This document shows positions 1-43,745 of a DNA stretch of 64,000 nt, piece by piece. The translations under genes and the position numbers were made by a program. Every line of letters starts with the position of its first letter. The first letter of the stretch is position 1. The notes under the pieces are model-generated. The model was not told the origin of the DNA, did not search any database, and saw nothing but the letters and a program-made list of their open reading frames with translations. Source of the DNA: Lepisosteus oculatus (Eukaryota; Chordata; Actinopteri; Semionotiformes; Lepisosteidae); the NCBI RefSeq assembly GCF_040954835.1, contig NC_090703.1, positions 10,039,001 through 10,103,000 on the forward strand, given 5' to 3'.

Positions 1-54
1 CACCCTGGCCCGGATGCCGGTCCCTCTCCGGACACACACACACACACAGGGGAT

Positions 55-15243: not shown

Positions 15244-18200
15244 CTGCCGGTAACCTCCCTAGGTTGGCTTTGTAAATAACACCTTGTTCCTAAATGGTTA
15301 GTTCCAGGTTAATGAACATATAACTAACAGAGAACTGTGGTGAATTCATCGTGATCTTCAAGTTTCTGCACTGATTTGCGTCTTCCTGTCTGTGTTGTAA
15401 CTACCAGCTCATAGTCACCGTTTTTTTCAAGTATCAGATAGTGCTCTTGTTTCAGCACGTTTGTAAGCAATACAGCTCTCTAGTTTGACCCTCCATCATT
15501 CTGCCACCCAGCAGAAATATTCCGATTGCATCCCTGCTCCAGTTGAGAAGATGTGATCATGGAGATGGAGTGCACCAAAGAGACCTAACTCTCCCCATTC
15601 TGCTTTGGTATAAACATGGCTCCTATCTTGTTTTAAACCAAAAACATCAGACCAGGATGTCCTTCCATCTGTCAATATATTTGTCCAGGTGATGTTTGCA
15701 GCCTAACAAGGATGCTTAATGTACAACAACATTATCTCCCTTTTCCTGAATACTTAAACTCAGCCAGTCAGATATAACAGTGTCAACACATCAAGACACC
15801 ACACTGTTAATCTATTTTTTGGGCATGGAGCGGGCACTAAAATTGGATTCACCATTTATTTAGCAATATTCTTTTTTAAATGCATTAAATGGAAAAAAAA
15901 GTTGGCTGCAACTTTGAAAAAAATGCTCAATCGTCATTTATTTTGTTTCTTTCAATCAGGTAAATACAAGTATGATACAGCAGAAAGGAACTCTACCTAA
16001 CCTCAGATACCGAACAACGTTGAAAAACCAAGGAGAACAGACCGGTGGCTCAAAAGTTCTCTTCAAAGACCACGTCTCACCGTCTCCAGCGAGAACAGCA
16101 ACAGTGTCTCCGTGTTGCGGAAAACAGCTACGTGTGTTTCTATCGGTCTGGTTTGAAGGTGAAGGAAGACTGAATCAGGCTGCCCTCGGCCTCTCTCTCT
16201 CTCTCTCTCTCCGATTGTGTGCTTGGATTCGAGAGTGTTTAATCTTCTCTCAAAGAGCTATTGAAATACACTGCCCTTTCAATTAAGTGCTTTCTTGTTC
16301 TGGGCCCTACCTCGTGTTCTTAATGAAGACACGTTTCATTTTCAATATTTTTTCAATAACATTAATATTGCGCCGGACGGGAGACTGAGCACCGGCGGCG
16401 CGGTAATAAACTTGTGATGGGGAAATTGTTTAGGCATGTGTGTAGGGTGGTGGGGGGGATAAAGTTACTAATGGGAACTGTGGATGTCGCTTAAAACCGA
16501 TTGCATCACGCTAACCACAACTGGACAGAGGGTACCGGCTCCCTTTTTTTCAGTATTCGAGACTGTGATTTTATATTTATATCACAATTAAAATATAAAT
16601 GAACGTTACCATTTTAATCTTAATCTTTATACCAACCGGATTTTCTTGGAATTTGCTCAAAGACAGGAGACAAGACACAGAATGCAGAAATTAGTTTTCT
16701 TTCGAAAGAAAATGAAAAGTAAAGTTTGGAATGCAATATCGTATACTGTATGTGTCCATGTGATACGTAAATAACGTCTGAATCCATGGTGCTCGCCGGC
16801 ATCTCCACTCGGATTGAAACGGTATATTCGAGAGAGGGTCCTAAGGCTCTTTTTTAAAACGCAGGTCCCTGCAATCGCCATAACTTCATCCCAGTTAAAG
16901 TTATTTAAAAGGGTGTCCGCGTTCCCATAGACATCGCAGGGTATGTGTCTTAAACTAACACGTAAACCTAACAGATCAACGGTGTTTTCTTTCAAACAGG
17001 TAATTTGTACTGACGCTCTTTCCAAAATGAGTCCCGGAGCCCTCACTGAAGTCTCAGACAAAGAAGAAGAAAGGAGTTTTAAAAATCATCCTTATCCCGC
17101 AATCGTCAATTAGTCTCTAATTGATGTTAATCCCGCTACAATATTTATTAAATATTTTATTATGAATAGTAGTATTATCTGCATTGTCATGCTGACCCTG
17201 ATCTCTAGAACAGGGGTGCTGGAAGACGTTTATACTTCAAAGCATCCCTCACGGTCCTGTGTTTAACTCTTCAGGTGTACAGCTTGATACAGAGCTGTTC
17301 TCTGTAGCGCAATCAGAATTTATGTTTAATACGGAATCCCGGTAAACATTATGTGCACGCAAACCGTTCAGGAAACTCCAGTGAGATCATTTAATTTGAA
17401 ATAAAAAATACAATTGATGCGATGATAACAGCAGGGGCTGGTGGCGGGTGTTGTAGTGACGATGAAGAGAATTGTAATACTGTAGCTATCCTCGTTTTAA
17501 GATTCTTGGTATATTTACGTCATCGTTTTATATTTAAATACTAAACTGGAAAATAACCCATGGTATGTTGTTTGCCCAGAAAGCCCTACAAACAAACAAG
17601 AGCAATCAAGAGATGGGCTGCATTTAGAAACTAGCAGTTACTACTAATAAATCTGTCATATATATTTTTTTTTAAATACAATACTTCAGTTCAATTATAA
17701 AGTACGTTATTGACTTAAATGTTTCAAGTTGGAACATTTGTTTGACAAGTTCTATTCAGTTTTCAGGTGCTACTCGGGTGTTTTATATGAATAAACACAG
17801 CTGCCAACTTTCTGTTAAAGTTCACATTACACACAGTTCACAGACTGCGGGATTACAGATTGCAAAATGACTCCAATTTAAGAAAATCGTAACGTCAGCA
17901 CGAAGTTACCTTGACCTATACTATCGGCTCTGAAAAGGGATATATAATTTACATGTTAACGTTGCTTAAATAATATCAAGTTAATTTAGCTGACAGGAAT
18001 GAGTTAAAACATTTTGGATCTAGTTGAGAGTTTGATATCGATATTTCAAACTGGTTTATATATATCGACGAACGCTCGCACTAAACGTTATTTTTCCCTT
18101 TACGGTTTAAGGCGACGGCAACGTTGGAATAGCTCCGTATAGTGATATTGTAAACCTTGTTGTCGTCGCTCCAAAATGGAAAAGGCTTCCAAAAAAGAAG

Positions 18201-20200
18201 GCCTCGATTTTGAAATATTATTTTAAATGCTTTGTGTTGCTCGGGCGCGTGAAGAAAGGGGATAACTTTATGTGGGAACTCTTTACGTGAAGTGGGACAG
18301 GATTCCCAGGAGTCTTAACCCTACAATTCGTTTTCCATAAACCGGGATAAACAACGACTTCTTCAATTAGCCGCGAGGCAGCGGGGTTACTGATAGCCGC
18401 TGGCGTTAACACGAGGTGTGCGATTTCGTTTTCCCGTCGTTCTCCTTTTTAAATATAGAAATTCCCCGAGGCGGTGTGGTATTTAAAAATGAATAATTTA
18501 TCAATTTAGCTCTAAAGAGTCGGTGCGGGTTACATCCGAGCTATAATCTCGAGCTGCGTCAGGCGAACTGGACGCTGGATCCTGCAGTCCAAAACCGTTT
18601 AAGATTAAACCTCTCAGAATGTTTTAGTAGTCGACTAACAATAATCACAGGTTATCATTTTCATCTAGCGTTTGTAATGGAATATTCATGGAATTTCCTT
18701 ATGAGATGTAAATGCTAAAATTAGTAAATACGTAAATAGTAATAAATACATAGTAAAAAAAGAAAATATAATATGACAACTCAGTGAATTTAGGGGGAAA
18801 TGGTTTCATATAATGGTTGCATATAAAATTAATGATGTAAAGGTGTCATCGTATATGTATATAATTATTGCCTTTTCGGAAAAAAAAACGTTATTTTTAA
18901 AACGTTTTCAAGCTGATTCAAATAACAGCTCGTCGAAATCCAACTTCATGAACTCTCTGAATTGCGTCTTGTTTTCCATAAAGTAAATAATTGTGCCGTT
19001 CTTCGGACAGACGATCGAAAATTTAAGAAGAAGAAAAAAAACAGACGACTGTAAATGCATTTTAGATTCTGTGACAGGTTGGGTCCCTCTTTCTGTTCCC
19101 TGGCTGCCGGGGTGTGGAGAGTTTATTGGAAGACAGTCCTGAAAGAGTTTGCAGCAAACAAAGTTGCGAGGCTGTGAAAAGAGCAGCAATAACAATTAGC
19201 TTGTTCGCTAATCCCTAACAAAACGCGACCTGTCCCCGAGCGCTCCGAGAAACTGCGGGCACGCGGGGGGGGTTGGGGCTGAGGGAATCGGGGGAAACGG
19301 GGACAAAAGAGGCTGATCCGTGGGCCCCTGTAAGAGTGGGTGGGTGACACACAATGCAAATAATCCTGGTATAAAATTATATGGAGTTCCTCCTTTTGCT
19401 GTTTGCTTTTACGCAGCCGTTGTGTTTCGGTTCTAACCAAATGTTTTATTATTATTTACAAACTGGAGGTATGAGCAGGCAGACACGACTGATACGGAGA
19501 CGGACGTGATGGATTGATTTGATGAAGTACGTTAACAATGGACTGACATGTAAAATCATACCCTTTTCTCTCCCGTCCTCTTCTTCCACTGATGGTCTGA
19601 TAGTGACCGAACCTCTGAAGTTGCTAGCAGTGAGCCTCGACGTTCGCCGCCAAACTTTTGTTTCCATCGCAGAGGAAGATCAGTCCTCTTACGGAAAACT
19701 TAGCTCACGTCCTATCTGAGACCTTTTATTTCGTCCTGCCTCTGATTATTTCAACGGTGATGATTAAACCTCGCACCGCACGCATTTCAGAATGGCAAAC
19801 GGAGAGTTGAGAATGCGTGAATTTCCTGCTCAAACCGACCGGGGGTTTATGAAGCTGTGGATTCCGGCTTTGGGTTTAAAACCTAAATCTATATTCAAAT
19901 CTGACTGAGGTGTGTGTGAGTGAGAGAGTGAGGGAGAGAGAGAGGGGGGGGGAGCGGGGAAGATTGTGTGGGATGTGTGTCTGGATTTCTCAAAGCTTTC
20001 TAAAGAGGATACATATACCAAACAGTGACAAAATCCTCCCGATTTGTTTTTGTGGGGATGCACTCGTTTCACAGAGGACTGGAGGTTAAGTGGGGGTTCG
20101 AAGCAGTCGCTTCTCTCGTTCAAACCCTCGGCAGACAGTCATTTGATATCCCACCTGAAAATGCCATCACTTTAAATTATTATTATTAAAATTATTTAAA
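15244..20200. other. Gene-free, CpG-retaining upstream flank of otx2
   Basis: No gene or interspersed repeat recognised. The sequence is AT-rich yet keeps CpG: I hand-count 17 CpG in 18061-18300, compared with 4 in 13201-13440. Short CT/GA runs occur at about 16193-16210 and 19915-19955. The open frames on both strands are short and domain-free. Confidence 0.5.
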
Positions 20201-20207
20201 AATATTA

Positions 20208-20236
20208 TTGTTGTTGTTGTTGTTGTTGTTGTTGTT
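20208..20236. repeat. (TTG)n microsatellite
   Basis: A run of about nine TTG trinucleotides follows an AT-rich stretch. It produces a poly-leucine open frame that is not a gene. Confidence 0.9.
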
Positions 20237-20677
20237 AATATTATTCACTCGTTTGCTTATAGCGTTCGCTTTGCTTCATGTTGATACACTGATGGAAAGA
20301 TCGAAAAACTATTTTGGAATTTTTTCTCCTATACATTTTCCTCTTGGATTTTTTTTTCGTGGACACCAGACAGCTCAGAGTGACTCCGAGCGGGATGTCA
20401 AATTCCTCCCTTATCACGCCTACCTTTGGGAACTCATTTCTAGCTTTGAAATACACATACGCTCAGAAAGAGCACGTATAGATGAACTACCGTGTTTTAT
20501 GTAGGCCTAAATATGCTTAAATTGTAATATTATACAACGTAGTTGAAAAAAGTAGAAGTTCGGAAACTTGTTCTACTTTATTAAAGCACGTGTCAAATGC
20601 CAGAACATAAATTAACTATCCATTGGTTTTGGGTATTATTTCTTAGATATTGACAACTTCCGCAACCGTACTTTCTA

Positions 20678-20762
<85 letters not shown>
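20678..20762. repeat. Compound (ATT)n-(GTT)n microsatellite
   Basis: An uninterrupted ATT run of about 42 bases switches directly to a GTT run of about 42 bases. No coding content. Confidence 0.95.
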
Positions 20763-21929
20763 CCCTAATAAGAGTATATTTCCTCAAATTTCTAGCGATT
20801 AATCAAGTCATATTACCGTCTAAAAGGTGATTTATAAAATAATACAATACAAGTTAGACTGTTCCACTGTAAGCAGAATCTATATCCGACACAAAAAAAT
20901 CAAATCCATACATACCTGAAGTGTCCTTTGCAATTCCCCCAAAAAGACAGTGGTTGAAATTAAATCAGTAAATCATCGCCCATCTCTGCTGTTCCCATCA
21001 AAGAACTTCACAGGACCTTCTTAAACGTCCTTGTTCTTGTCTGAGAAGTGGGCACCTCCAGGTTTGTGTCGCCATGTATCTGTCGCAACAGAAATCCGTG
21101 GCAAGGTTTGTAATGTGCAAGTTTAGCGCTATTAAAAACTCTTCGGGCAGCCCCTAAACACGCACCGTCCGGAGTATATAACCTCAGCAACTACATAGTT
21201 GGGGTGTTTCAGGAAGTTTTCAGTCTTACCTGCACTAACTTCGCTTCCTTGGGAATTCCCAGTCTCTCTTCTGAAAACTTCAACTACAGTATTCCGTCGC
21301 TTACTCGCTTGTCATGGGGCAAAAGCAGTGTCGGGAGCAGGGCGTGACAGTATATGTTCTTCAGAGGGTCGCCGAGTCTCTAGATCTGTATGGTTGCTAT
21401 ATATATAAAAAAAAAGAAGAACAAATTCTACCGGTCTGTCTTTCCCCGTGGTGCACACTACGATGTCAGTGAAACCCTGGTTTAGGTATTTAGGGAAGCC
21501 GTCCGGTGAGCCGGTTGAGTCCTCGGGGCGCGAGTGGGGGGTGTTTACTGCTGTTTTTAATTAATCGTGGGGTTCAGGGGACGTCATGCTCACCTTTCTT
21601 CTCTAGAAAGTCCTACTATCTAGGACTGAAAACAATGCCCTCTGTTGTCCCTCAGAAGACGGTAGTAGCGGTTGTATTTATGGTGTGTGTGTCTGTGTGT
21701 GTGTGTGGGGGGGTGTTTATAGTAAAAGCAACATTTTAAAATGTGTAGATAATAAATCCATCAGGGGCTCCCATGTATCCGCCGCCTCTATCAACCCTGA
21801 CCCAGGAGGACTGGAGACGTTGGACGACAGCAAGACCGTTCTCTCCCCCCCGTAGCGCTATTGCGCTGTACACTGGCGTGTTATTATTATTTTCCCTTCT
21901 CTGACTCCGAACTGGGTACGTTGTCAATC

Positions 21930-22060
21930 AGGCTCTCGCTGCCATTGGCTGGGGAGTTTGCGTCAAAAAGTTGCTGGTGAGATTTGTCTCTCAGCAAATC
22001 TCCCTGAGAGAGAAACAGACCTCAACCTTCCAGCCTCTCTCATTGGACGGCGCGCTCTCT
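21930..22060 (+). promoter_or_regulatory. otx2: Putative distal otx2 promoter, CCAAT boxes
   Basis: Two inverted CCAAT boxes are present (ATTGG at 21944-21948 and 22042-22046), in a CpG-retaining stretch just upstream of a strong splice donor at 22315. There is no TATA box. This fits a CCAAT-dependent, TATA-less promoter for a non-coding first exon. Alternative 5' exons are known for vertebrate OTX2. The transcription start is not determined. Confidence 0.45.
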
Positions 22061-22314
22061 CCAAGCCCAACTCCGCAACTTCGACAGAAAGATCAACAAA
22101 TCGCTACCGTATGTATTTTCAATTCTTCCCCAGGATTTCGCCACCGCTTCGCAAAATGTCGCGCAAAATGTCCAGGCTTGAATTCGCCTGATTTTTCTCT
22201 TCTGCTGTTTTTTTTTTTCTCTCTTTCTTACAGGATTTCCTTACTTTCAAGTTTTTTTTCGGGGGGGTGGGGGCACAAATCGAATTTCGGCCGAACCCGC
22301 TCCCGGAAAATCAG
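22061..22314 (+). other. otx2: Putative otx2 non-coding 5' exon
   Basis: The right edge is a near-consensus donor (CAG at 22312-22314 followed by GTAAGA). The left edge is uncertain. The exon may begin at a transcription start near 22.0-22.1 kb. Alternatively, only 22234-22314 is exonic, because a very strong polypyrimidine tract and acceptor (TTTCTTACAG, ending 22233) lies inside the stretch, with a possible upstream donor (CTG followed by GTGAGA) near 21977. No long open frame starts here that would compete with the OTX2 start. The exon would splice over about 4.2 kb to the ATG exon. Confidence 0.45.
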
Positions 22315-24330
22315 GTAAGAGTCATTCCCGTGTGTTTTTGAGGACTGTGTTTCGAATCCCTTTTTTTTATTATTTACGGCGTAGAAGTGCAGCACTCCGT
22401 GGAGATTTTTTTTCGCAGGCGGTTGTTTTAGAAAGAAATTGGTGGGCGATAAAATAAGTTTTAGTCTATTAAACGAAGTCTGTCTTGAAAAAATACACGA
22501 TCGGGAATTAAAATGGCTATTTTGCTCTGCATAGTAATCAAATCAAATCTTTGTAATCCGAATTAGCTTGTAGAAAAACTAGATTTCACGGCGGTACATA
22601 AGGCAACCGAAAACTCAAGCCTACTGCACAACGTGTTACCTGTGAAACCGCTTGTGCTTTTAAGCCTGGAAATAAACATACAAGGATGTATCATGAACAA
22701 AACGGTTTACTGTGTTTTCGAATTTTGCTTCCACTAAACGGATTTATAAAAGCAAATAGTGTTGTAATAATCGTTTTACATTGTTAAGATATTCAGAAAC
22801 TCCTGGCGCAACTTTCGCCTGTTCGTATTTTCTTCCGAATTCCGCTGAATGTCCCCACTTGTAATGGAAATACAGGCGGACAAAGAGCGGTAATTGAGGA
22901 GGCGTGTATCGGAGTCTTTCTTCCCCGAGTAGTCCTGCTCTCTCCGCCCCCCGGCACCCCGATTTCCACTGCTGCTCGCCTGTCCCCCCTCTCCGGCAGA
23001 GCGCGGGCAGGCAGGAAACCGTGCAGGAATGGACCGGGTCAGACAGTCTGGGCTGCACGCCTCCGTTTGCGGTCCACTATTCCTTTAGATCCTTCAAACT
23101 GAGATATACTCCCCGGTCCCGAGAATCCCGTTTCCGCCCAGACACGGTGATCGATGCAGAAGACTGCAAACGAATAGTCTGTATTAACGCGGTGCTTTAG
23201 TCATCACGTAGTTCGGCTACTGTGGCCGCCGGTGGTATCCTGGCAGTCGTTAAATCGATCAAACGAGGTTTTTTGCTGTATGAACCGAAAGGATATTTTA
23301 ATTCTGGAATATCTAAACTGTTTCTGTGGTATTTCGTATGGCGTCGATATATAAAACGAACACATAAAACTGAGTTAGAAATTAACCCTTTTCTTTCGTT
23401 TAACTCGCCCTGAGAAATTTTGATTACTGCCCAGTCAAACGGGCTCTGTGCTTCTTGAAATTGCTCTTCCGCTGGAAATGCAACTTTCATGTAAACGAAT
23501 TAAATATTGGGTGTTTCTTTACACGAATCCCGCATGCCATTTGTATCAGTACAGTCTACACGCGCAAAATAGACTTTTTGCTCAGTATAAAAACGTATCT
23601 TATGAAAATTAGACATATGTACATGTAAAATTATACTATATAATTTTCATTTTGCTGATGTAAAAACATAAGATACGTACAGTATATATACATTTGGATG
23701 TAGCCTACAAGATTAGCATATATTTGAATTAAATATCGTACAATATATGCATCGAAGGGATTTTCAGTAATATGTGCTATTCGTTTTTTTAAAAGTCGGA
23801 ATAATTGTGTTGTTGTTGTTGTTGTTTTGTTTTAGAAATGTATGGAATTAAATTGACTTACCCGTAAACCAGTGGTGAATTTATATTCCCCGCTCTTGTC
23901 TGAGGGCTTGTACCTTAAGAATCTCCAGACACATTAACACATTTTCTAAATAAATATAGGAACGCTTGGGCTCTGACTGACTGACTACTCCCGCTCCAAT
24001 CTGGACATGGAAAAAAAAAACGTTTACAGAAATACAGGCCTTTAAAACAACTGCGGCCGACAATCGGCTAGGCTGCGTTTTTGATCAACAGAATGCCAGT
24101 CTATGGTTGTTGTTTTTTTTTTGTTTCATTTTCATCAAGCAGAAAATTAATCAGCCCAAATGCGCTGCAGAGTCGAGGTTAGCGTCCTGTAATTAGGGAG
24201 CGCGTGCCACCCGGATTATCTCGTTAATTTATCAAGAAAAAAACATTTATTATAATTAATTCTTGGACAGGGTAATTATTATTGAACGGGTGAGGAGCAA
24301 CTGGTAGACGAAGGTCTGTGCAAAATAAAG
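22315..24330 (+). other. otx2: Likely otx2 5' intron, first part
   Basis: Non-coding sequence between the putative distal exon and the candidate alternative promoter. It is CpG-retaining up to about 23500 and AT-rich after that, with a short GTT run at about 23809-23826. No repeat element or gene recognised. Confidence 0.45.
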
Positions 24331-24426
24331 TGACAGATTGGCCCGGTTAGCCGTTAGATATAAAACGTGCAATCGTGGCCTCTTGCACTCAGGCGATCTC
24401 CGCTCCTACCAGTTCCAGCTCTGCAG
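24331..24426 (+). promoter_or_regulatory. otx2: Candidate TATA promoter and short 5' exon of otx2
   Basis: A canonical TATAAAA lies at 24359-24365. An initiator-like CTCAGGC, with the A at 24391, lies about 32 bases downstream of the first T. A near-consensus donor then follows: CTGCAG ending at 24426, then GTATGA. The spacing of TATA, start and donor predicts a leader exon of about 36 nt (24391-24426) that could splice to the ATG exon. The flank upstream (24170-24300) contains homeodomain-like words (GTAATTAGGG, CGTTAATTTATC, TAATTATTATTG). This agrees with the known use of several promoters by OTX2, but it is a prediction from signals alone. Confidence 0.4.
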
Positions 24427-25950
24427 GTATGAACCTCCGATTTTTATTCACAAACTGGAACTGAATGGAATTGTGGGTGGGACAAAACTGGGGACTTTCG
24501 GAAATCTTAAAATTAATACTCCTGGGATGAAAAAAAAAGTGTTTCCTGTTTAATGTCGTATCTACCTGAACTGTAACTGAATACAGAACTAGTCTTATTG
24601 CTTGGCTTTAAATGTCCTGGGAGAAATAAGACAATCGTATGTATATTAATTATATAGTCGTATTTTTGCGTCATCTTTGTTCATATTTATTTTAGATTTC
24701 AATTATGTTTTGGCGTCTTCAATCCATTTGCCTTTTCGAATATTTTGACACCAAATCTATTTTTTTATAACGTGCGGGATAATTGCAAATTAAATTAACG
24801 ATTTCACGCACACATATACTTGTATGTTAGCACTAAGTGTTACTGACTTCTTAAGAAAAAGGGTTGTTCGTCCGAGGTGAGTAAAGGAGTTTAGTTTATC
24901 TGGACTTTTGTGGGCTGTATTCCTCTTACCTTTACAGTGTAGGTATGGTGTTGCATTCATGGAGTATACAAGAGGCCCAGAAAAAAAAAGGTTAATTATA
25001 TCCAAGGAAAAAAGGTTAATATTATTTTTAGTGTATTGTTTAACTGAACTTTGGGACAAGTTTCCTTTGAGGAAACGTGTGGTTTAAGATTTTATAGTCG
25101 CCATTTTGAAGATTCTCAGTGGCTCCGGGAAACTTGTAAAACACAAAAGTGATGATATCATGGGAGGGATCAGATAATATTATTACAAAAATCTGTCTTA
25201 GCAGCACTTGAGAAAGCTGATTGTTGCCGCGAGGGGTTGTTATCCAGTACGCCGTGGTTCCTGAAAAGTTCTAAAAAGTTGATAATTAATCTATTGCACT
25301 GGCATCGTGTACGGTGACAGTTATTCTGAGTTTTCTTAAAAGCTGAATTGTGTCAAGGGTTTTTTTTTCTGTGCAGCAGTTTTGTAATTATGTGGTGTAA
25401 TGTAATTATATATTATTTCAATGCGGGTATGATTCCTGGAATTCTTTTTTTGTAAAAAAAATCAATGTTATTTCTTGTTATCAACTAAGGTTATACAGCT
25501 CCCCATACAACCAAGGTAGATGTTAAGATTTTTCCAAAATCGTTACCCAGTTCGCAAGTTGTAGTCGGTTTTAACGCCGTAAATGAGCCAAGAGGTGCTG
25601 TGAAAGCGCGTAAAGAATGAGTTTGTAATTGAAAGTTGATTGTTTGTTTAACGCAAGTCTCTTTAAACACTTCTAATCAACACCTGTCGATTGCCTAATA
25701 AACTTCTTTTGAAATCTTCAAAATGAAATTACCGGAGGCGTTAATAGTTGGAAATGACGAAGAGTAAAAAAAAAAGACAGCAGCATGTCTAGTGGAACTG
25801 CAGAGTGAGAGAGTTGCTCAAGTTTCTGGTTATTTGCTGAAGTACTGGTGTTTCACATTTTAATGACATCCTATTTAAATTGACAGCGATTTCTATTATG
25901 TAGACAAAGCCCGCAGATATAATTAAAACGAAGAAGCGGTGCTAGCTTAA
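24427..25950 (+). other. otx2: Likely otx2 5' intron, second part
   Basis: AT-rich non-coding sequence with several poly-T and poly-A runs. No gene or interspersed repeat recognised. Confidence 0.45.
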
Positions 25951-25959
25951 TGGCTACAA

Positions 25960-26280
25960 AATGGGGAGCGAAGAGTTTTCTTCATTGTTTCTTTGTTTCT
26001 CGCCAACGGGGCTTTTGTTATCAGCATTATTTATCTGGCCAACACCGGCCTTTGTCTCTCCAAATGGCCCCCAATCAAGTCTACGTTGGAAACAATTAGC
26101 TGGTCCGAACCTATGGGTCCCTATGCAAATTGTGCTCCTTGTTGCTGCCCAGTGTGTCTGCATTTGAACGAATGTGTTTTGTTCTCCGAGAAGGCGTGCT
26201 GCAATTATGGGGTGTAGCTTGCTTTTTTTTTTTTTTGGGACACGTTTGTCAGGCAAGAGCATCACTCAGTTCACTGGGAC
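25960..26280 (+). promoter_or_regulatory. otx2: Candidate proximal promoter/enhancer with octamer
   Basis: This lies just 5' of the ATG exon. It contains a perfect POU octamer ATGCAAAT (26123-26130), AACAATTAGCTGG (about 26091) and TTCATTGTTTCTTTG, a SOX-like word near 25980. Complexity is high and CpG is moderate. A third OTX2 transcription start close to the ATG exon would lie here or just downstream. Conservation needs comparison with other species. Confidence 0.35.
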
Positions 26281-27455
<1,175 letters not shown>

Positions 27456-27607
27456 CAACGCCTCGGAAACAGAGACGGGAGCGGACTACTTTCACCCGCG
27501 CACAGCTCGACGTCTTGGAAGCCCTTTTCGCCAAGACTCGCTACCCGGATATATTCATGCGCGAGGAGGTGGCTCTGAAGATCAACCTGCCCGAGTCTCG
27601 TGTACAG
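27456..27607 (+). CDS. otx2: otx2 coding exon 2 (homeodomain, N-terminal three quarters)
   Basis: This 152-nt exon completes codon 33 (Ala) and encodes residues 33-83. It contains the homeodomain from its start at Gln38 through helices 1 and 2 and the beginning of helix 3. Key phrases are [19 protein letters not shown] and [18 protein letters not shown]. It ends after Val-Gln in phase 0 with donor GTGAGC. This places the intron between homeodomain positions 46 and 47, the classic paired-class location. The frame appears to continue to about 27793 in genomic DNA, but that extension is intronic. Confidence 0.97.
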
Positions 27608-28228: not shown

Positions 28229-28849
<621 letters not shown>

Positions 28850-30085: not shown

Positions 30086-32580
30086 GTGGAAAATAATTAT
30101 CTACAATTATCTGGTGTTTTGGGATGGAGTGTAACACGATTAAGTGGCCTGTACTATTAAAGATAGATCTTTATTACATTTTAAAAGGGTGCTTTCGCTG
30201 TTACAGTAATTTTTTGAGGTTTGCTGGTACTCGGAGGTCAGGGTAATTCCCATAACAGCAAAGAGGAAGGTGACAGCTTTTCCTGACCAAAAATAACAAT
30301 TTAATGAATAAATGAGGAAGAAAGGCACGATTTCCTGAAAGAAACCGTCCTTGGTCTGGTCACTTTATAGACTTCCACGATTTTTGTTAATGGTAAATAA
30401 ATGATTAGCTCTCCTCTGGGGCGCTTTCATAGTAGTTTCACCTGGTTTAACGCGACGACCAGATGAGTTTAGTTCTGGTTATATGTTCAATAATGATGAA
30501 AAAAAACATCGCTTTTCATAAAACTATAAAACAAATATTTGTAGTAAACAGACACCTTTTTATTTAGAAATTAAACGGACAATAGAGTCCTTGAAAGAAT
30601 TCGGATTGTTTTCTCAGTGGATAAGTTTTTAAAAAATAGAAGAGAGGCGAACATTAGAGAAATCGAGTTGGATCAGGTATCCGCTTTAGAGGAGGCGAGA
30701 AAGAAGCATTTGCTTTGTGTAGTTGTACACATCTGTGCTGCGCAGGGGCTGACAGTAAAATTGCACTGTGGGCGCCGGTCCTTTTCTTCACAACATGTCA
30801 AGTGCTCAGAACCTGCTTCGGCGGCATTTTTATTTAAGGAAAAGTAAAGGACATTCTTCTCTTCACTGGGCGGCTGCAGTGTAACCCGAATCTGTTGGGA
30901 ATCCGTGCAGAAATGCTCTATTCACAAAAGCCGGTCTTTGGAATTCCAAACCTGTAATTTGTACTTTTTTTTAAGGAAGAAAAACCATACAACTGTCCAC
31001 TAAGTTCGTTTTCTGAATGGAAAACTATGTTAATAGTGCAGCCCCGGAAGCCAGGGACGGGGAAGTTATCCCCGGGTTTTTTTGAGCTTAGTAATACAAA
31101 AAAAAACACCATCGACTATGAGGAAATGTAACACATAGGCGAGCCGAGCGAACCTCAGCTCAGAATTTTTCTTTTGCTTTCAAACTATGACTCTTCAGCC
31201 GAAAGAGCAGTTTTCCTCGCTAAAAAGTTATTTTGGTGACAGTAGTACAGCCTTCGCGCCTTGTCGCGCCGACCGCTTCGGCTCTTGTCCTTGGCGTCAA
31301 ATGAGTCCCGCTTGGATTTCCTTTCTGACGGTGTATTTTGTTTAATAAATACGAACGTGATTCATAAACATTTTTAATGTGCACCCTGGTTTTCGAGGTG
31401 AAACCTACCCATGAAAAACCGGTTGGCAAAGCTATTACATTTACACTGGTTTGCGCTCACGACTCGAGTTAAAAGAGTTAAGAACTGAAGAGCATGTCCC
31501 CTCCAGTACTTGGAAAGAAAGATCTTCAAATTCTATTATTATATTTTTGATAGTCGTATGATTGCTAATTTATTAGCTATTTTATTAGTAATAGCATCAT
31601 AGTGTTACCGGAGAGAAAAAAAAAACACATCCATCTAGCAGGCGCGTCAACGAGCACTCAGTCTTAACGTTGATCTGTTATTGACATTACTCTGTCATTA
31701 TTGCGGTAGTGACAACGCAACTTATGATGTGAAAAATAAATTGTTTCCAGTGTCTCTCTCTCTCCTGAAAGTTTCCCCAATAAGAATTGGAGGCATGGGA
31801 AAGCCGTGTTAATCCTCAAAGAAAAGATAATCCCGATATTTCACTGGCGGGGGTTTCTTCGGGGTACGGGGCAGTCGCTGTCCAATTCATACACCCCGCC
31901 GCCGTCCCTGAGGGCTCGGCAAGAAATCTTTCACAGGGCAAAATATTCTCTGCCCCCCGAATTTAATTACGCAGCGGGAACCTAACGTTTCTGTTCGCGA
32001 AATAATATAAACAACACCTTGCTTTCGATTTTCGTTCGTACACCATTCTTTCATAAAGACGACGATACAATTTCTCCGTCTGCGCGTTAGTGTTACAATT
32101 CTGCGGAGAGAAACTCGAATTCTTTAAAACACCTGTAAGAACTCCTCTCCGTCTACCGAGGGCTAATTCGTTTGCGTTAGCTTAACACGAACCCTGCGCC
32201 AGGAAGGAAAAACCTACATAATATCTTAGATCAGAAAACTTTTTTTCTTTAATCAGATCTCAGCCCCTACGGCTGCCTCTTTGTGCAACGAGGTTTTGCC
32301 AGGTCCTAAAAAGACGTGTTATAGTGCAAAGTTGGAAGCTGCTTTTAATGCTTTGGGATACAATCCGATTTGTAAGAGAGGCAGACCTACCATGTTAACG
32401 CGAACAATCGGTACCCCGGAGCCTTCTTCAACATAAAGCGGGAACTTAACAGAACTAAAATCGGATAAAGTAAATAGATGAGGACAGACAAAAAGGTTTA
32501 CTGTCGGCTCCTCGGGTTGAATCAAAAGGTTTGACTCTGAGTACGCGGCGTAATTGTGAGTCGTCTGAATGAAGTAAAGT
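30086..32580. other. Gene-free downstream flank of otx2
   Basis: No gene or interspersed repeat recognised. CpG is retained, for example around 31240-31300 and 31860-32110. The open frames are short and unconvincing. Confidence 0.5.
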
Positions 32581-32589
32581 CAGTGGCAG

Positions 32590-32800
32590 TCGGATCTTTA
32601 ATTAGTTTCCATGCTTCTCCTGTAATTGTTAGAAGTCGGACTTTCAATTAGCATCCTTGACATTGCCAGTAATCTTCCTTTCACTCGGTCCTTACTAAAG
32701 GAAACACACTAATTAAAACACTAGCTTGAAATAATCGAAACATTTAAAGAACTTGGCTAATGAGAATCTTTTTGATTTTTTTTCCTTGTGGCTGGCGGGG
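32590..32800. promoter_or_regulatory. Candidate enhancer: homeodomain-site cluster
   Basis: Within about 170 bases there are TAATTA (32599-32604), GTAATTG (about 32622), CAATTAG (32646-32652), AGTAATCTTCC (about 32669), TAATTA (32710-32715), ATAATCG (about 32731) and GGCTAATGAG (32756-32765). Such density in a repeat-free stretch 4 kb past otx2 suggests a regulatory element. Function is inferred. Confidence 0.35.
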
Positions 32801-33289
32801 TTTGTGAATTTTCCTTCACTGCGATGAGGACAATAGCTGTTAAGATTTCGTCTGACAAATCTTTTATATGTCTGTACGTGAATATCAGCTCACGTCTTTA
32901 ACCCATTCGCTACTTTCCTGAGGAAAGAATATTCACCATTTATTTTTTCCACTGATGCTCACCGAATGGTTTAATTGACCGTTTTCGTCAGCCTCCAAAA
33001 AAGTATTTCTACAAACAGAAGGCATGTTGTCACTATTAGCATATCCATGTTGTTTTGGATATATAATATATAATTCTTGTTTGTTGTTCGACGATAAAAC
33101 AAAGGTGTATTATAATGATGATTTTCTTCCTTACATGATTGATAATTACAATAAATTAAATAAAACCAATCACAACGACACAATTCAGTTTTATCAATCA
33201 AAAGAAAAACAATAATATTTAAATGTTCAAATGACTTTAAGAAGTATACTACACACTACTTTTATCTTCGATTATAAAGCGGCGCTTGT

Positions 33290-33475
33290 TGTTCCACAAC
33301 ACAAAAATCCGCTGCGGTTGAAGGGCTTCTGGGTGTTACCTGGACGAGACCTCACCTGTCAATGAAGTGTTGACAATTAATTTAATCAGACGGAGACCCT
33401 TCCTGTCCGTTGTCTGCGCGCTGCAGGGATTATACACTTGAGGACAAGGTCAGTTAAAACAGAGCAGTGTATCGA
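33290..33475. promoter_or_regulatory. Candidate enhancer with E-box and OTX site
   Basis: A mixed, higher-GC stretch contains CACCTGTCA (CACCTG E-box at 33353-33358), TGACAATTAATTTAATCAG (33371-33389) and a K50 homeodomain site GGATTA at 33427-33432. The flanks are AT-rich. Regulatory function is inferred from motif content. Confidence 0.35.
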
Positions 33476-35640
33476 TCTGCTGCGTGAACACGCACAGAGA
33501 CTCAAAGAGGGATTCATTTTTTTTTTTTTTTAACGGAACTCGTTTAACGAGTTCTGGAGAAGACCAAGCCAACTGGGAACTCTTTTCACTTCCAAAACTT
33601 CATTTTATATTATTCGATCTGGAGGGAATAAATACTCTCTCCTCATATGTATGTCTTGGCTGTGGAGAAATTTAGCCTTGGCCCATCGGCTTGTGTGATG
33701 TGCTCTGTACAGCAATAGTTTTCCTTAAAAAATGACCTCTAATTTACAGAATGGTGTGCTGTTATACGGATGTCTTACATTGCTTAACAACACATTCCCC
33801 GCGTTTTAATCCATCCCCTTACTTGATAGTTAATTTAAACTAAGTAGGTTCACGTTCGTAAGAAATAGCAGGTAGCACACTCTTCGAATGTATATCAACA
33901 AGAGCCCAAACATGTAGATACATGTAAAAAGTAAAATTATTCTTTGTCAAAAAAGGGGAAAGTTTGAATTGTTCCATAAAGACGCACCCTGAAGACAAAT
34001 TAAAATATTTTAATTATTGTCAGCATCTTGAGTACAGAGTACAAAAACTAACGGTTTTATTTAATCTCTCACAGAAGTTTTCCGCAAGCCTGCACTGTAT
34101 GAATTTATCATTTAAGTACGTCGATATATCACAATTTGCAACAGATTCTTGGGGGAAAATAAATATAAACATAGGATTATCACATGGAAAAAATGAATTA
34201 TTAATAATATTTTTTAGGACGATAATTATTGCACGCTCGAAAATATTTTTCACTTAATGGGGCGCCTCTTATTTTGGTAAACATGATTTTCCATCTTCCG
34301 ATATCTCCCTCACTGTTTGCTTCCAGAAAGAAAATGATCGCTTTGTTTACATTCAGTAAAACTCCACATTAGCCAAATTAAATGGGTTCAAAAATTCCCT
34401 GCTGTACGCAATGACGAGCAGATGAATTTCTCCACTGGTTACTCTACAGTTTAAACAGAGATAAGGAAGAGAGCGTCTCATTGGGAAAAAAAAAACTGTT
34501 AATCCACCGAAATTGAAATGCCTTTTCCCATTCCCTTCAATTTTTTTAACAAAAATAGTTTTGCATAACACGTCCACATAGTTACAGAGCGTGCTGGGTG
34601 AAAATCTAAGTTTTAATTGCGCATACCTAGGTGAGTGAATATGCCAGAATCGACGAAGCCCCGATAACCCCTTTTTTTCCTGCGCCCCCCAACAAGCCAT
34701 GATATACTGTAAACTCTAAAATAAAAAAAAAGCTAAGAGAGTCAGAAATATCGCTACAAGCTACAAAAAGAGCTGCGAGCAGGCTACACGAGCGATGCTT
34801 GTGGGTAACACATTAAACAACACCTCTTAATTGTTCATCATTGTCGTTTCCGTTTTTCGTTTCCGATTGAAAAGCATTCGGCAGAAACACTTGAACGCCG
34901 TTTCAAGTCCTTAAACAGAATGTGTGTTGAACTATTAAAAGTTTAGTTTCACCCCGTAGAAGGAACGAGAAACCACGACTGCCCTGCATATCAGCTTTGC
35001 GAAGTTCAATCTGCATTTCTTTGAGAGACCGTTGTTACAAACGCAGCAGGCAGCTTAGTTACTGAAGCGGAATACCCAGCCTTCTGACTTGCTGGTGGAT
35101 TTTTAAAAACTTTGTGTTTATTGTCAGGCGAAACTGGGCTCATTCATTAACTGATGATGCTTTGTTATTTGATAAATACATGACAGATAACTGCTCGATT
35201 GGTATTTATGCCTGATCGCGGCTAGCAGTGCCAGTTGAAGGTAGTTAAAGGTATTACATTTCCTAAATCATTTTAAAAATGATTTTAAAAGTGGGGTTAT
35301 AATAATAATAATAATCCATATTATTTGGAAAATATGTTTGAAAACGTAACATGCTGCAGAACTACAAACAGGCAAGAGTAACTTGGTGGAGTTATTAACA
35401 ATAATCATAACAACGCGTTCGGGTTCGTGTAATTTTGTACATGGTCATTTTAACGAGTAAACTGCGAAGAACTATAAGTTATAAAGATAGAATAGCTTTG
35501 CATTTTAAAACTGACTTGTTTTTTGTGACTATGTATTTTCGAAGTTCTTTTAATGAAAGGTGAATATCTAACCATTGCCTGCAATCACAGACAATTACAA
35601 AAAATATCATAACAATTTGAAATAATTACTCTTTCCCCAT
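33476..35640. other. Gene-free AT-rich stretch
   Basis: No gene or interspersed repeat recognised. A short (ATA)n run lies near 35301-35313. Confidence 0.5.
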
Positions 35641-35770
35641 TCTTCGCAGATGCTAGAGCAGAGGTGTGCCTCGCTGTCATGAAAGAGTTCATGATAAGGG
35701 TGACCATTCTCCTTGGTCAACATCATAACCACCTTTATCGTTGTATTACAGATCACGCCTAAAGAGTCAA
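35641..35770. promoter_or_regulatory. Candidate element with two inverted repeats
   Basis: A perfect inverted repeat TCATGAA-AGAG-TTCATGA lies at 35677-35694. It is followed at 35701-35719 by TGACCA-N7-TGGTCA, an everted pair of nuclear-receptor-like half-sites. The region is repeat-free and distinct in composition from its AT-rich surroundings. Confidence 0.3.
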
Positions 35771-38070
35771 ATAATAAAGAGGCCCAGGCCGAATCATGTT
35801 ATAATCCAAACAGAAATGTTGAAGTGTCTTATATTTAATAATTATTCCTACCAACTGTTGGTAGCCAGTGACTGACACATCACACGCATTAAAAGTCGTT
35901 TTTCTTGCGGAGGCGCCTGTAGTTAAGGTGGAACTCTAAAATCTGAGTTTTGCTTCTGGAGCCTACTGGACGTGTCACCCTGTCCGGTGGAATGCGAGTA
36001 CAGTGTGTTACCAGTATGTGTGTGTGTGTGTTACCAGTATTATCATTTCATTTCAAATTACTAGGTCCGTTCTCTTCCTTCCACCGAGTCGTCGCCCGTG
36101 GGTCTCCTTAAACACTAAAGCATTCGGCATAGTTTAAACGTCTCTCACTCCTTGTTCCTCAGCAAAATACAGATTTCAAAACGTAGAGCAACTCTCTTCC
36201 CTCCTCTGCGTACTTTTGGGTGTAAAAATCGTATTCTGTTTTTCGAAAGGCTAACAAGTGGCAAACTTGCCGCTGGAAACAGGAGGGAAACATTCTTCGA
36301 TTGGTGTTGTTTGTGCTGCTAAACCCCACACGGTACACGCATCTGTTTCTGTTGTTCCGAGACATTAATACCCACAAAGGGCTTAACAAGCTCGCTATTA
36401 GTGACACTTGCTAAAAGGAATAAAATACAAATCAAAGTTAAACGCAGCGAGTCGCAGCGCAAAGCGTTTGGGAACGTCTTTCTCCAGTAGTTCCGCAGCT
36501 TATTCGGGGGTTTCTAAACTTCACGATCAAAACTAACGCTGGTACCGAGTCTGTGGAAAACTCTTTACGTTCCTTGATGTGGGGAAAAGGTAGCGTCAGT
36601 CTTTAAATACTTTCGGCAAGTCACCACCTTTAATCGCCGTTGTTCAGATCACAGATTTACTCGACCTCGGTGCTCTGTCCCACCTCTCCCTAAACGCTCG
36701 ATACGCAAATACAAATCCAGCTTTCAGCCCTTGGGAGTCCGTGAAACGGTATTGGGAAGACAAATACGGTTAATGTATCATCGCTTGGTTAAACATTTAA
36801 CTTCACATTAAAATAAATATGCACTGACCGACTAATCTACTTGAATCTTCATAAAAGGGCCGAGGTTATCCTCGACACACAACGTCTTAAGGTCTCGCCC
36901 ACAGGTTACGCCGCTTTTGAATTGGATGTGATGTTTTTAACATACTCTAGTCTGCCTCCGGGTAATTCAAGGAGCTCATGTCCAGACCCAAAGAATCATT
37001 TCTACAGTGAGAATCTTTCCGTTTTAATTAAACGCCATGTAGCACCAAGGAACATATGGGAATAGCAGACGCTAAAATTAATCCTCTCTCCGCATTTGTC
37101 GATGTCAAACAATGGGCCCTGGAGTTAAAGTACTCCACGGTCCATCTCATGCTCTGAACTCGAGCCTGCCCGCGATTACACAAACCAGTCTGCCCCCAGC
37201 GCGCAAAAGGCCATGCACAACCAAAGCGCAGAACACAACACCAAAGGCAGCACAGTCGCGCAACGTTACAACCGCAGGACATGACGACCGTAACACAATG
37301 CACACTTGTGTTAAAACAAGCCATCCTGCGAAGAGTTTCACCGTGCCTCGTACCAACGATAGGTTCAGGCTATGGCGGGCGAATGGAATCAAATTCCCGA
37401 CACACAAACATTCTAGTTTTTCGTTATCGTTGACAACAATTCTGTTTGATTTAAAAGGAAGTTTTCAGAATTTCTCTTGGGAAAGTGGCAGTTTCACCTG
37501 CCTGTGCGCTTCCTAAACTGTCAAGTGTAAAAAATGCTGGATGAGACAGACAATACTGATGCCCACCTGCCACTGTGCCAGTAGTGACCTATTTATACCC
37601 ACAATGATTACAATCATTGATTACGATCTGCAAAGTTCCAAAGCGATTAGCCTCGGAGGTTTCCTACAGCTACCTTTATCAGACGACTATTAAATCGATC
37701 TTTTAGTCGAGCGTTCAGATGGGCTTTGCCCATTGTTGAAAAATACATTTCAAAGCTTCTTGCTTCAGAAAATGGTTAGCAATCGAGCTGGAGACGAGCA
37801 GCTGTGGAAAATAAAACGATTGACATGATTTTCACTCGGATGGTTTTTGGGAATCAAAGTTTCGCAGAAGCGAAGTCCGGTGAGCCAGCACGATTTGGCG
37901 AAGAAATGGAAACTCTTAAAAAAAACGGCACTTAATTGGGAAAAGCAACATCTTACAGTTTGTAAGACCGTATTCCTATCACTAATCCTTTTAATTGAAC
38001 TCACAGCAAATATCCAGGATGTACCATTTTAAAATTATTTGTATCTATTTATTCATAATAGGTGTGAACG
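35771..38070. other. Gene-free CpG-retaining stretch
   Basis: No gene or interspersed repeat recognised. CpG is dense (16 by hand count in 36421-36660). A short GT run lies at about 36018-36031. The longest frames (for example 37112-37516) have no domain. Confidence 0.5.
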
Positions 38071-38089
38071 AATAATAATAATAATAATA

Positions 38090-38160
<71 letters not shown>
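38071..38160. repeat. Palindromic (AAT)n/(ATT)n microsatellite
   Basis: About 20 bases of AAT repeats change directly into about 70 bases of ATT repeats at 38090/38091. The junction is therefore a self-complementary hairpin of at least 20 bp per arm. Confidence 0.95.
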
Positions 38161-38162
<2 letters not shown>

Positions 38163-39926
38163 CTACTGTAGTTGTAGCATGACTATCGCCTTAGCTGAAC
38201 CGTATTCACCACGGCAGATTTGAGATGCTCGGCTAATAATGGGGAGAAATTGCCTGAAAATATGCTTTACAAAACAGGAGGAAGAGCAGGCTTGGGCGAT
38301 GAAAGTGGATCCTAGGTAGCATTCGTCTGCCCCAGTTTTCTGAAAGGTTGGCGGGTGCCAGCTTAAAATAACAATACAACACAAATTGCGCAAAAAGCAA
38401 CTTAAAGAATAAATAAAGCTGCCTGCTTTATCTGTCTCGTAAGCCGCAATCTCTTCTTCGCTTTTTTTGTCCGTTTGTGCAGTTTTAGGCCACGGGGACA
38501 AATCCTTTAAGACGCTAAAATGTATATATACATATATGTAAATAAATACGGCTCTGGCTATTAACACCTACAGTGTCTCGTACTCTATCTCAAGACTTCT
38601 GAACTCCTACTTTCCCAAACGCGACGACAGCCTATGAATCCGCGGACGTTCTTTACGCTGTGTCACGTTTTTTTTCCCCCAAGGCTTGGTAACTGTGTAG
38701 GCCGCTCGCGTTTCTCATTAAAGCCCATTTACTCCAGTGCCGAGGGCTGAAGAGACTTTAAAGAATAATAAAGTATTCTCGCCATTTAGGGCAACTTTTC
38801 TCGGGATTTCCGCTCACGTGATTTCACACCACAGCCCAGGGTTTTTTTTTCTCAAACTCCAGGGGCTAAGTCCCTTGAACGTGCCGAGGAGGCGTTCATC
38901 GATGCTTCTAGGGCCCAGAAGACATGGGCCTGAAATGTGAAAGTGCCTACGATTGAGCTGAAAACGATTGATGAAAACACTGAGGTTTTTCGGTACCTTT
39001 TCTGTAACATTGTAACAATTGTGAGACACCAGGTTCCGTACTCAGTCCCTTTTCCGCAAATCCGGCGTTCGCGGGATTTTATGAAGGCTATAAACCTCCA
39101 CATAAGCTGATATCAAATTATTGTATCAACGATTTAGTAATAAATAGCATTGAAACAATAAACAAAATATAGGTAACGTATTACTCTCTTGCTTTACTTT
39201 ATGTCGTTGTAAGTATCGATAATATAATGTGTTACGCGCTTTAAGTATAGTACCCTCCACCTCTTCGACAAACACCCCAGCTACATTTCTCAAAGACTGA
39301 GCTCAGCCACTGTTATGTGATATTGTAACCCAGCCCTGCAGACAGTAGTTATCCAGACAGCTCTAACACAGACGCAGGTGCGATTTTCGCAATCTGCGAC
39401 ACCTGTTCGGTGTTGGGTGAGCAGTGACACCCGGGAATATCGTTTAAAAAGCTCGACACACTGAACCCACATTAGGAATGAGGAAGCACGATGCCACTAC
39501 AGGTGGAACAAATGGTAATTAAAACAAATCCCTAAGAATATAACAAGCATTTGTAGGATTCCCTTATTTGTATTTCGATGTCCTCCTGAAACGCACGATA
39601 AACGTTTAAGTGATGAATAAACCCTGTTTCACAAGATGGTTGCAGAATAGAGTGAGGTTTCAAATGCACTTCAACTATTTAGATGCTGATAAGGACGTTG
39701 AATGCGATTACAACCGAGAATAGTTGTTGGAGAGACTTGACTCGCGAAAAATGAATCAAAAGCGCTCCGACATATTAAGTGTTCCCCTCGTTCAATGATT
39801 AAAACTTAACTGAGGTACATATTTGACATCTGTGTGTGAAACGGAGCCATCACAATAGAAATGTGAAATATAATCGAACACATTAAATGCTCCTTGACCA
39901 TTTACGGTCAAATAAATAAACACCAA
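38161..39926. other. Gene-free stretch
   Basis: No gene or interspersed repeat recognised. CpG is still moderately retained. The short open frames are domain-free. Confidence 0.5.
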
Positions 39927-39927
39927 G

Positions 39928-40002
<75 letters not shown>
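39927..40002. repeat. Compound (ACT)n-(AAT)n microsatellite
   Basis: About 14 ACT units are followed directly by about 11 AAT units. On the minus strand they give a run of Ile and Val codons in an open frame that is not a gene. Confidence 0.95.
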
Positions 40003-41790
40003 TCTAGCCATACTCCACTCACTATACATCCAGCAATATCTCTTAGGCTCTGCTTATCGTGGCTTAGCCAACTCTATATTTTCTGCACTAGTTATTTAAG
40101 TTTGTGGCATCATCAATAGGAATGAATTTGATAATCTTGTCATAGATTAAATTAAAAGGGTTTTGTACCCATAATAACAGATTTAAATGTTTTAAAGACG
40201 AAGCCTAAAGGGATTGGGGTAAGCCCACTAAAAACATGTGATTTTCATTTCTCCGACTGCTCACACAAATCCTCGGATTTAGTGAGATTCGAAATTGATA
40301 ATAACGCCAACAGCTTTACAACTTCGAGGTCTGATGAAATAAAGGATAAATGAACATGCATATCGCGAAATGTGATTTTCTGCTTTGCTCGTTATTGTTA
40401 TATACCCGTCAAACTATGACCGGAAACCGGAAACCAAACGGGGTTACCGTTCAACCTGTTTTGTGTTGAATTCAAAGAAACTCGCGGGAGGATTCGTTTT
40501 CTTTGAATTGATTTCTCTGGACCCTACTGTTTTTGTTTTTATCTCCGCTTGCTTCTGTAGCCTATCACCAAAGCACATCATTATTTTAATTCATAAAATG
40601 GTAGACTTTCTTCTTGTACGACACATAAAAGCAGGGTAAGAACCCGATATCGACCACTTAGTAATTAGCGCTGATGAAGAGAAATGTAAACACGTGGTCT
40701 TATTAAGGTGTTCTTTGTTTCAAACTGCCCGGGGCAGTCCTATCTACTCACAAATCGGGTGTCTGGTAAATAAACTGAGCTCGGGGGGGGGTAATTTACT
40801 TTGATTGACAAACGGCGGCCCTGCGCAGAATCTTTAAGTGGTGGAGAGGGATTGTCATGCTTGATACCCGGCTTCCGGGAGAGCTCTGCCTCTGAAGGAA
40901 GTTTCTAGACCAATGGGGAATGAAAGCGCGCGCGTCGAAGAAACACCCGAGAGAAAGGTGGTAATATCGTGTAGGCAACTCTGAAATCTGTCTTATTCTA
41001 TGTAAAAATACTTCCAGGTTTCATCAAAGCTTTTCTGTACATCTGTTTTTTTTTATGCGTTAAGTTGAGGTCTTTAGGTACCGTCGGCGGATTTATTTTA
41101 ATTCAGTATAGAAAGGCAAAACCTCTCGGAATTGGTTTATTTGAGTCCAAATCGACTTTAAATCCCCGAATTGTGGCTTGCAGTACTTTGATCCTAACTT
41201 AAATGTATCGTGGCATGATGATTGGATAAATTGCTAAGAGTTTAACTGTGTTTATCTAAACAAATGATTTGCTGGCGTTTTCCTTATCCGATGGTTTATA
41301 AACGATTTATGATATTATTACCTAAGGGATTTATCCAACAGCGCTAACACAACATCAATTAATGGTTTGCCTGTTTTCCTAAGTAAGATACTTCATGGGT
41401 TGCAAGCACACCGCATGTAAGGCGGCCTTCGTATAATCTAAAATCAAGTGTACAGCGGTGTAAAATCACTCTAAAAAGATACTTTGTGCACAGATGTGCT
41501 TTTGCCTCTCTGTCTCTGTTGTATGTTCTTGCCTTCGCTTAGCAGGATATTTGGGGTCGCCTCTACAGACCGCTATCCATGTGCTGTGAGCAGGCGTGCT
41601 CGGAATGTTATCTCAAGTTACAAAAGACGGATGGAAAAAAAAGCCTTCCCATTTAGCTGAAAAATACTGATATTGTGTTATTCAGAAAGGAAGAACACAA
41701 AACTCTAAGCTGATTATCATTTTTTAACATATGTTAAAACAAAATGACATTTTAACGTTGCGTCTCTTCGGCAAGTTAATTCCTAGTTAG
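40003..41790. other. Gene-free stretch
   Basis: No gene or interspersed repeat recognised. Confidence 0.5.
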
Positions 41791-41794
41791 TTTA

Positions 41795-42110
41795 GCGGAG
41801 AGAGTCCATTTGCTCCCGGGACTGTTGAACTCCGGGATTATAGGGGCATCTCGCATGCGGACGAGCCGATATTTGAACCATCCTCGCCTTTAGGCTCATG
41901 GCCCATTAATAAAAAATCTCCTTAGAGTCAAATTGAAATACTTTGATAGCGGATTACAAGGCCCTAATGGCGATGCGATAAAATGTTCACAAGCAAGCAC
42001 GCTGCAGACTAAAATGTCAGAAAATGGGCACAGGCGAGTGATTATCGTCTGATCAAACGATGCTAAGAGCCGGATGCCCCTGGTGATCTCCGCGGTGCCC
42101 TTGAGCCTGG
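41795..42110. promoter_or_regulatory. Candidate OTX-responsive element
   Basis: Two K50 homeodomain sites GGATTA (41835-41840 and 41951-41956) occur with GCCCATTAATAAAAAATC and GTGATTATCG in a repeat-free, CpG-containing stretch 13 kb downstream of otx2. This is a candidate enhancer, possibly under OTX control. Conservation and activity are untested. Confidence 0.35.
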
Positions 42111-42539
42111 GCCTTCCCGCAGAAATAAACACACGGGCACAGCCTGTCCCCTCCCCCCAGGTTACACAGCCTCCCCGGAAAAACAAATAACAGAGGAGAC
42201 GTCGGGCGACGGGAAGACTCTAAACCAGTCACCGGAAAACCCACGTGCTTCGGCATAGGCACGACACAACAGACAACCTGTTCGAGTAACGCGTTTGGTA
42301 ACATGCGCGTACATCCTCGGGTTTCGATTCAAATTGTTTTTCATTTTTTAAATGAGATTTATTGGAACAGTAAGGGACTATCAGATCCGTGCATCTCAAG
42401 TGGAACAGACAGTAGCAATGATGACGGCTTTGCCGTACATTCAGCAGATGGTAGAGAAAACAACTTTCAATGGATGAGCTTGTATTACTTGTGCCGAATG
42501 GCGTTATTAAAGATATCTAATGTCCAGGTGCATCAGCAC

Positions 42540-42745
42540 AAGATACAGAACCCTGTGTCGACATGCGAGTTTACACAACGTTTCGGCTGTGGGGCCTTCT
42601 TCTTCCTCTGACACCCGAAGAAGGCTCCACAGCCGAAACGTTGTGTTTTTCGTCTCTTTCCAGCAGGGAATAAACCCGTTACCTGTTCCTTGGCAGCCTA
42701 CGCATGCTGACGCAGCCCCCTACTTGAACCTCTCTTGTAATCTAC
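42540..42745. repeat. Interspersed element with 30-bp hairpin
   Basis: The arms at 42573-42602 and 42617-42646 are reverse complements over 30 bases with a single mismatch and a 14-base loop. The core reads AACGTTTCGGCTGTGG in the left arm and CCACAGCCGAAACGTT in the right. The flank GGGAATAAACCCGTTACCTG and ACGCATGCTGACGCAGC looks like a repeat I recall as widespread in fish genomes, though I could not verify this. It is the first interspersed repeat after the repeat-free zone. Confidence 0.6.
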
Positions 42746-43555: not shown

Positions 43556-43745
43556 TATAATAATAATTGCTTACACTTATATAGCGCTTTTTCTGGACAC
43601 TCCACTCAAAGCGCTTTACAGGTAATGGGGACTCCCCTCCACCACCACCAATGTGCAGCATAATAACCCGGAGAGACTATGTGAAGGGTCTACAATTCGA
43701 CCACAAGTACCATGGATCAACACTAAACTTCATTTTGCCCGGTGC
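43556..43745 (+). repeat. TATATAGCGC-core element, copy 2
   Basis: Starts with an (ATA)n-like run, then TTACACTTATATAGCGCTTT and CACTCAAAGCGCTTTACAGG, then the phrase CCACCACCACCAATGTGCAG. This matches the longer copy at 58.1 kb in the same orientation and the opposite strand of the short copy at 15.2 kb. The right boundary is approximate. Confidence 0.7.

Follow-up and report, generated by a model that had tools for sequence, protein, structure and literature searches.

The 64-kb window of Lepisosteus oculatus DNA analysed here (C8:10,039,001-10,103,000, without any N) contains otx2, a gene of head development, which is supported by Pfam matches to Homeodomain and TF_Otx on two exons in a search of the window's reading frames; eight of the ten frames had no Pfam match above the cut-off. 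Around the gene lies a 28.5-kb domain saturated with CpG dinucleotides, and a 27.3-kb stretch without dispersed repeats overlaps this domain (Table 1). The window was extended by 100 kb on either side to give a local region of 264 kb, and whole-genome DNA searches covered the 1.20-Gb assembly.

Table 1. Features of the otx2 locus in window coordinates (o/e, observed/expected ratio)
Feature	Start	End	Strand	Basis or remarks
Nearest dispersed repeat to the left of the repeat-free stretch, not in the CpG domain	15174	15235		Two local matches at 89-93%
Stretch without dispersed repeat	15236	42572		27.3 kb; blastn with local library, plus 15,244-42,560 searched as DNA against the whole genome in two parts
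CpG-saturated domain	16011	44495		28.5 kb; G+C 0.412; CpG o/e 0.96; maximal-scoring segment in 264 kb
TAT/TTG microsatellite	20678	20762		Tandem Repeats Finder
otx2 first coding exon	26567	26663	+	Read from translation and splice signals; 70% match to C17 paralogue across 26,560-26,667
otx2 homeobox exon	27456	27607	+	Pfam Homeodomain 1.8e-13; bounds read from translation and splice signals
otx2 last coding exon with stop codon	28229	28849	+	Pfam TF_Otx 7.2e-32; bounds from reading frame and translation
ATT microsatellite	38090	38160		Tandem Repeats Finder
ACT/AAT microsatellite	39928	40002		Tandem Repeats Finder
Dispersed repeat with inverted ends, inside the CpG domain	42573	42729		Local copies at 77-87%; one C8 copy at 96%
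Dispersed repeat of high copy number, inside the CpG domain	43548	43659		12 other local copies

The CpG domain is a genuine and strong feature, far beyond the local background. Maximal-scoring segments were sought across the 264 kb by scoring CpG against TpG plus CpA. The otx2 domain scored 187 and the runner-up 69.8 (2.7 kb); its length is also notable within this neighbourhood, as the second longest of the 15 segments listed measures 5.2 kb. When 500-base blocks were shuffled (60 shuffles each), the best score was 65 with blocks from outside the domain and 66 with all blocks, and the longest best segments reached 7.0 and 16.7 kb, respectively. This score is descriptive only because the scoring fractions derive from the same data, and the contrast in CpG o/e is independent of it. 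The ratio is 0.43 to the left of 15,244-42,570, 0.95 within it and 0.47 to its right, with G+C of 0.48, 0.41 and 0.48. Almost all CpGs have been retained around otx2, against a loss of over half in the flanks. The maximum among 716 overlapping 28.5-kb windows outside the domain was 0.578, compared with 0.964 for the domain. All 55 half-kilobase windows inside exceed 0.6; outside, this value is exceeded by 0 of 13 windows at G+C 0.25-0.35, 13% of 47 at 0.35-0.40 and 12% of 122 at 0.40-0.45. Within the domain CpG stands close to its chance level in every G+C class, and the contrast extends to AT-rich DNA, the class of G+C 0.25-0.35 having an o/e of 1.00 inside the domain and 0.28 outside. Inside, the ratios of TpG (1.04) and CpA (0.99) show no excess when compared with 1.22-1.27 outside.

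The domain resembles a classical CpG island in having an o/e above 0.6 and differs from one in its G+C, which falls below the required 0.5. By the classical criteria 30.6% of the domain counts as island, hardly different from the 30.3% found for the 45.5 kb on its left side. The original prediction had proposed a CpG-retaining zone at 15,244-42,570, longer and more AT-rich than a CpG island, and with 28.5 kb at G+C 0.412 this description holds. Its four hand counts of CpG are exact (17 in 18061-18300, 16 in 36421-36660, 4 in 13201-13440 and 5 in 45241-45480) and the windowed ratio does step at both ends of the zone; the limits, however, are to be replaced by those of the maximal-scoring segment, 16,011-44,495. 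A second CpG-retaining segment lies to the left of the domain at 8957-11595 (2.6 kb, G+C 0.516, o/e 0.77), and two frames within it had no Pfam match.

The paralogues offer a form of replication. Matching homeobox exons were found on C3 (84%) and C17 (80%), along with a more distant one on C32 (75% across 80 bases), and 40 kb around each of the first two were analysed. The C3 gene, assigned to otx1 solely on the basis of this match, has a CpG segment upstream of its homeobox exon (6,577,846-6,585,714; 7.9 kb, G+C 0.486, o/e 1.01); the exon itself sits in CpG-depleted DNA, unlike those of otx2 and the C17 paralogue. The C17 segment (9,470,394-9,484,152; 13.8 kb, G+C 0.385, o/e 0.95) spans the paralogue exons and is of the same kind as the otx2 domain, AT-rich and over the gene. 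Both segments are shorter than that of otx2 (7.9 and 13.8 versus 28.5 kb). The repeat family of 42573-42729 also has a copy inside the C17 domain (C17:9472162).

Homeobox genes were also sampled more broadly, with ten 350-base pieces taken 2 kb from homeoboxes and drawn at random from a hand-made non-Hox list. This list was derived from 150 homeobox matches by dropping the otx genes, Hox clusters, multi-homeobox genes and some clustered neighbours. Pooled o/e was 0.73 for the ten flanks and 0.36 for ten random places (rank test, p 0.0014 on rounded values). Among the 150 matches, dense homeobox clusters on C1, C10, C12 and C31 look like four Hox clusters, which together with repeats of fish-like appearance would point to a ray-finned fish that did not share in the genome duplication of teleosts.

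The stretch without dispersed repeats was defined by similarity search, with no curated repeat library. In the genome search of 15,244-42,560, no dispersed repeat was found at the sensitivity of the search, in which very common words are skipped. The first part (15,244-30,243) gave seven matches, namely five pieces of paralogue exons (C3 and C17), one C32 homeobox piece and one 46-base GA-rich stretch. The sole match of the second part (30,244-42,560) was 30302-30348, 47 bases with 87% identity to C10:13,181,893-13,181,938. Tandem Repeats Finder returned six rows inside the zone, every one of period 3. At this sensitivity, the earlier claims that the zone holds no interspersed repeat and that microsatellites alone occur there both stand. 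The same search of positions 1-15,000 gave 3748 first-look candidates, of which 39 were scored, and 55 matches; because all of these fall within 2,631-3,556, the repeat contrast with the left flank rests on one element. This dispersed element (2631-3463) has many near-identical copies in the genome, the 40 best-scoring places matching at 94-100%. It is flanked by 44-base tandem repeats, and no Pfam family matched its open frame (2618-3208) above the cut-off. To the right of the domain, an element of about 1 kb occurs in two copies 5.7 kb apart (50355-51325 and 56070-57057) with aligned blocks 96-99% alike.

The borders of the two properties do not agree. The left CpG border, at 16.0 kb, is some 250 bases wide; past the right one, at 44.5 kb, o/e drops below 0.45, save for a single 250-base bin at 45.0 kb that reaches 0.73. 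The nearest flanking repeats end at 15,235 (left) and start at 42,573 (right), placing the start of the CpG domain 0.8 kb inward of the left repeat edge and its end 1.9 kb past the right one. Two dispersed repeats thereby lie inside the CpG domain, and that of 43548-43659 is matched at 97-99% by 38 of 39 scored genome candidates. The original prediction had both edges coincide as those of one chromatin domain. In light of these offsets and insertions a single domain shared by repeats and CpG is not supported, and the coincidence was dropped.

We accept the repeat-free stretch as real, although by itself it is not statistically remarkable locally. The local library, built from the 264 kb and a further 40 kb at the C3 paralogue, yielded 31 repeat intervals in 264 kb, and the longest gap of 27.3 kb is followed by one of 25.9 kb. 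With 31 random points, a gap this long appeared somewhere in 70% of 20,000 trials. It is therefore possible, if somewhat doubtful, that this part of the pattern is a chance gap at modest repeat density with no cause common with the CpG domain; the offset edges and the two repeats within the domain fit this explanation, which does not conflict with the preferred account of the CpG pattern. Against chance, a fixed 26.6-kb interval at this very place was left empty in just 3.5% of random trials, and old repeats outside will escape so small a library. In addition, developmental genes of zebrafish and mammals are recurrent sites of transposon-free regions (PMC2241635). Zebrafish has 470 such regions of at least 10 kb, many over transcription-factor genes, and selection against insertions has been argued; in mouse cells they overlap with Lys27 domains without being congruent (PMC2241635). 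Mammalian unique regions are treated in PMC11708210. The otx2 stretch likewise exceeds 10 kb, covers a homeobox gene and reaches upstream; no transposon was found in it by similarity search (very common words skipped), it contains no assembly gap, and short trinucleotide arrays are the only other repeats inside, where up to 20% is allowed. Its 27.3 kb would rank among the fifteen longest zebrafish regions (21-67 kb), with the proviso that repeat density and masking differ (PMC2241635). What sets it apart is that its borders are not those of the CpG domain and that no curated library underlies it.

Among the neighbouring genes, Pellino FHA and RING domains were identified in a gene downstream of otx2 and beyond the window (C8, roughly 116.5-120 kb when numbered as in the window), a position which we take to agree with the otx2 neighbourhood of other vertebrates. 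Of the three pieces searched, two had no Pfam match above the cut-off; by eye they are tentatively naa30 and ap5m1. An RNA gene as cause of the feature was rejected, as Rfam gave nothing at the gathering score and ARAGORN (bacterial code) gave nothing.

Large hypomethylated domains carrying trimethylation of lysine 27 of histone H3 (H3K27me3) were reportedly described in medaka by Nakamura in 2014. Broad non-methylated islands cover developmental genes in vertebrates including fish; the sp9 island was shown in human, mouse, frog and fish, while H3K27me3 was examined in mouse and frog (PMC3583005). Methylation valleys are described in human, mouse and zebrafish, with a role for Polycomb and TET in mouse cells (PMC5806489). 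The otx2 domain is like both in being multi-kilobase, in lying over a developmental transcription-factor gene (the exons with Pfam Homeodomain and TF_Otx are inside) and in its high CpG o/e. Polycomb occupancy with H3K27me3 is common in such domains, if not invariable. In mouse photoreceptors a valley overlaps Otx2; the domain described here, known from sequence alone, far exceeds at 28.5 kb the 5-kb lower bound used in that work (PMC4798964). Islands in zebrafish have high CpG o/e and G+C almost that of their surroundings (PMC3583005), to which the otx2 domain corresponds with G+C like or below that of its flanks, and those of cold-blooded vertebrates have AT-rich sequence features, with fish islands cited as GC-poor (PMC5161304). 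As far as sequence can tell, the CpG domain belongs to this known kind, and its AT-rich make-up is as reported for fish. A search of open-licence papers on valleys, hypomethylation or H3K27me3, and the gar methylome found no paper on this domain in fish.

Methylated CpG deaminates to TpG and CpA, and chance-level CpG without an excess of either therefore points most simply to a germline-unmethylated region. It is very probable that the 28.5-kb domain is the footprint of a region that has been of this type for a long time, a methylation valley or broad non-methylated island that takes in otx2 with its nearby regulatory DNA. A germline-unmethylated valley around a developmental regulator, as originally predicted, is the best explanation of the CpG data, whereas the edges supposedly shared by repeats and CpG form no part of it. 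The best reading may be put as a valley over a Polycomb-target gene that overlaps a transposon-free region. Unmethylated CpGs would bind CxxC-domain proteins and draw in Polycomb complexes, otx2 would be silent but poised under H3K27me3 in the germline and early embryo, and TET activity would keep the region clear of methylation, allowing its CpGs to escape loss by deamination. The repeat-free stretch may have arisen through selection that acted against insertions in the core, with two insertions tolerated near the right border. A stricter version holds that the 28.5 kb form one fixed, very old unit with borders set by sequence, which has escaped germline methylation for so long that CpG stands at chance level in AT-rich DNA, and that repeat exclusion is a separate property of its inner part; this we consider unlikely.

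Several observations weigh against the valley interpretation. The CpG ratio is an indirect measure of methylation, and island predictions based on it give many false positives in cold-blooded vertebrates (PMC5161304). A comparison of CpG retention in the two repeats inside the domain (42573-42729 and 43548-43659) with that in copies outside gave a mixed picture. At one site of the 42573-42729 repeat, CG occurs in the otx2-domain and C17-domain copies and is absent from the six other readable copies, a sign of retention if CG is ancestral there. At other sites CG is present in most copies, whether they lie inside or outside, and two sites have CG in three other copies but not in that of the domain. 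Five of the ten homeobox flanks have an o/e below 0.7, so not every such flank is of this kind at 2 kb. Finally, the repeat-free part may be due to chance.

As to the CpG part itself, purifying selection on dense conserved regulatory sequence could keep CpGs irrespective of methylation, and developmental regulators such as otx2 do have conserved regulatory elements nearby. However, scattered conserved elements should leave gaps, and the uniform retention across all 55 windows, the most AT-rich included, disfavours this explanation; the genome search of the zone also gave no non-exonic match to the paralogues. We regard it as improbable. Base composition, for example through G+C-biased gene conversion, has next to no likelihood and was rejected as a cause of CpG gain: G+C-rich places outside do have a somewhat raised o/e (0.63 at G+C 0.6-0.8), the only point in its favour, but the domain is more AT-rich than its flanks (0.41 versus 0.48) and o/e corrects for composition.

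The offset of the edges together with the two insertions provides a handle on what excludes transposons, be it the unmethylated state or the regulatory content. More generally, the CpG ratio of raw sequence can reveal a long valley, probably unmethylated in the germline, that classical CpG-island rules do not pick out.

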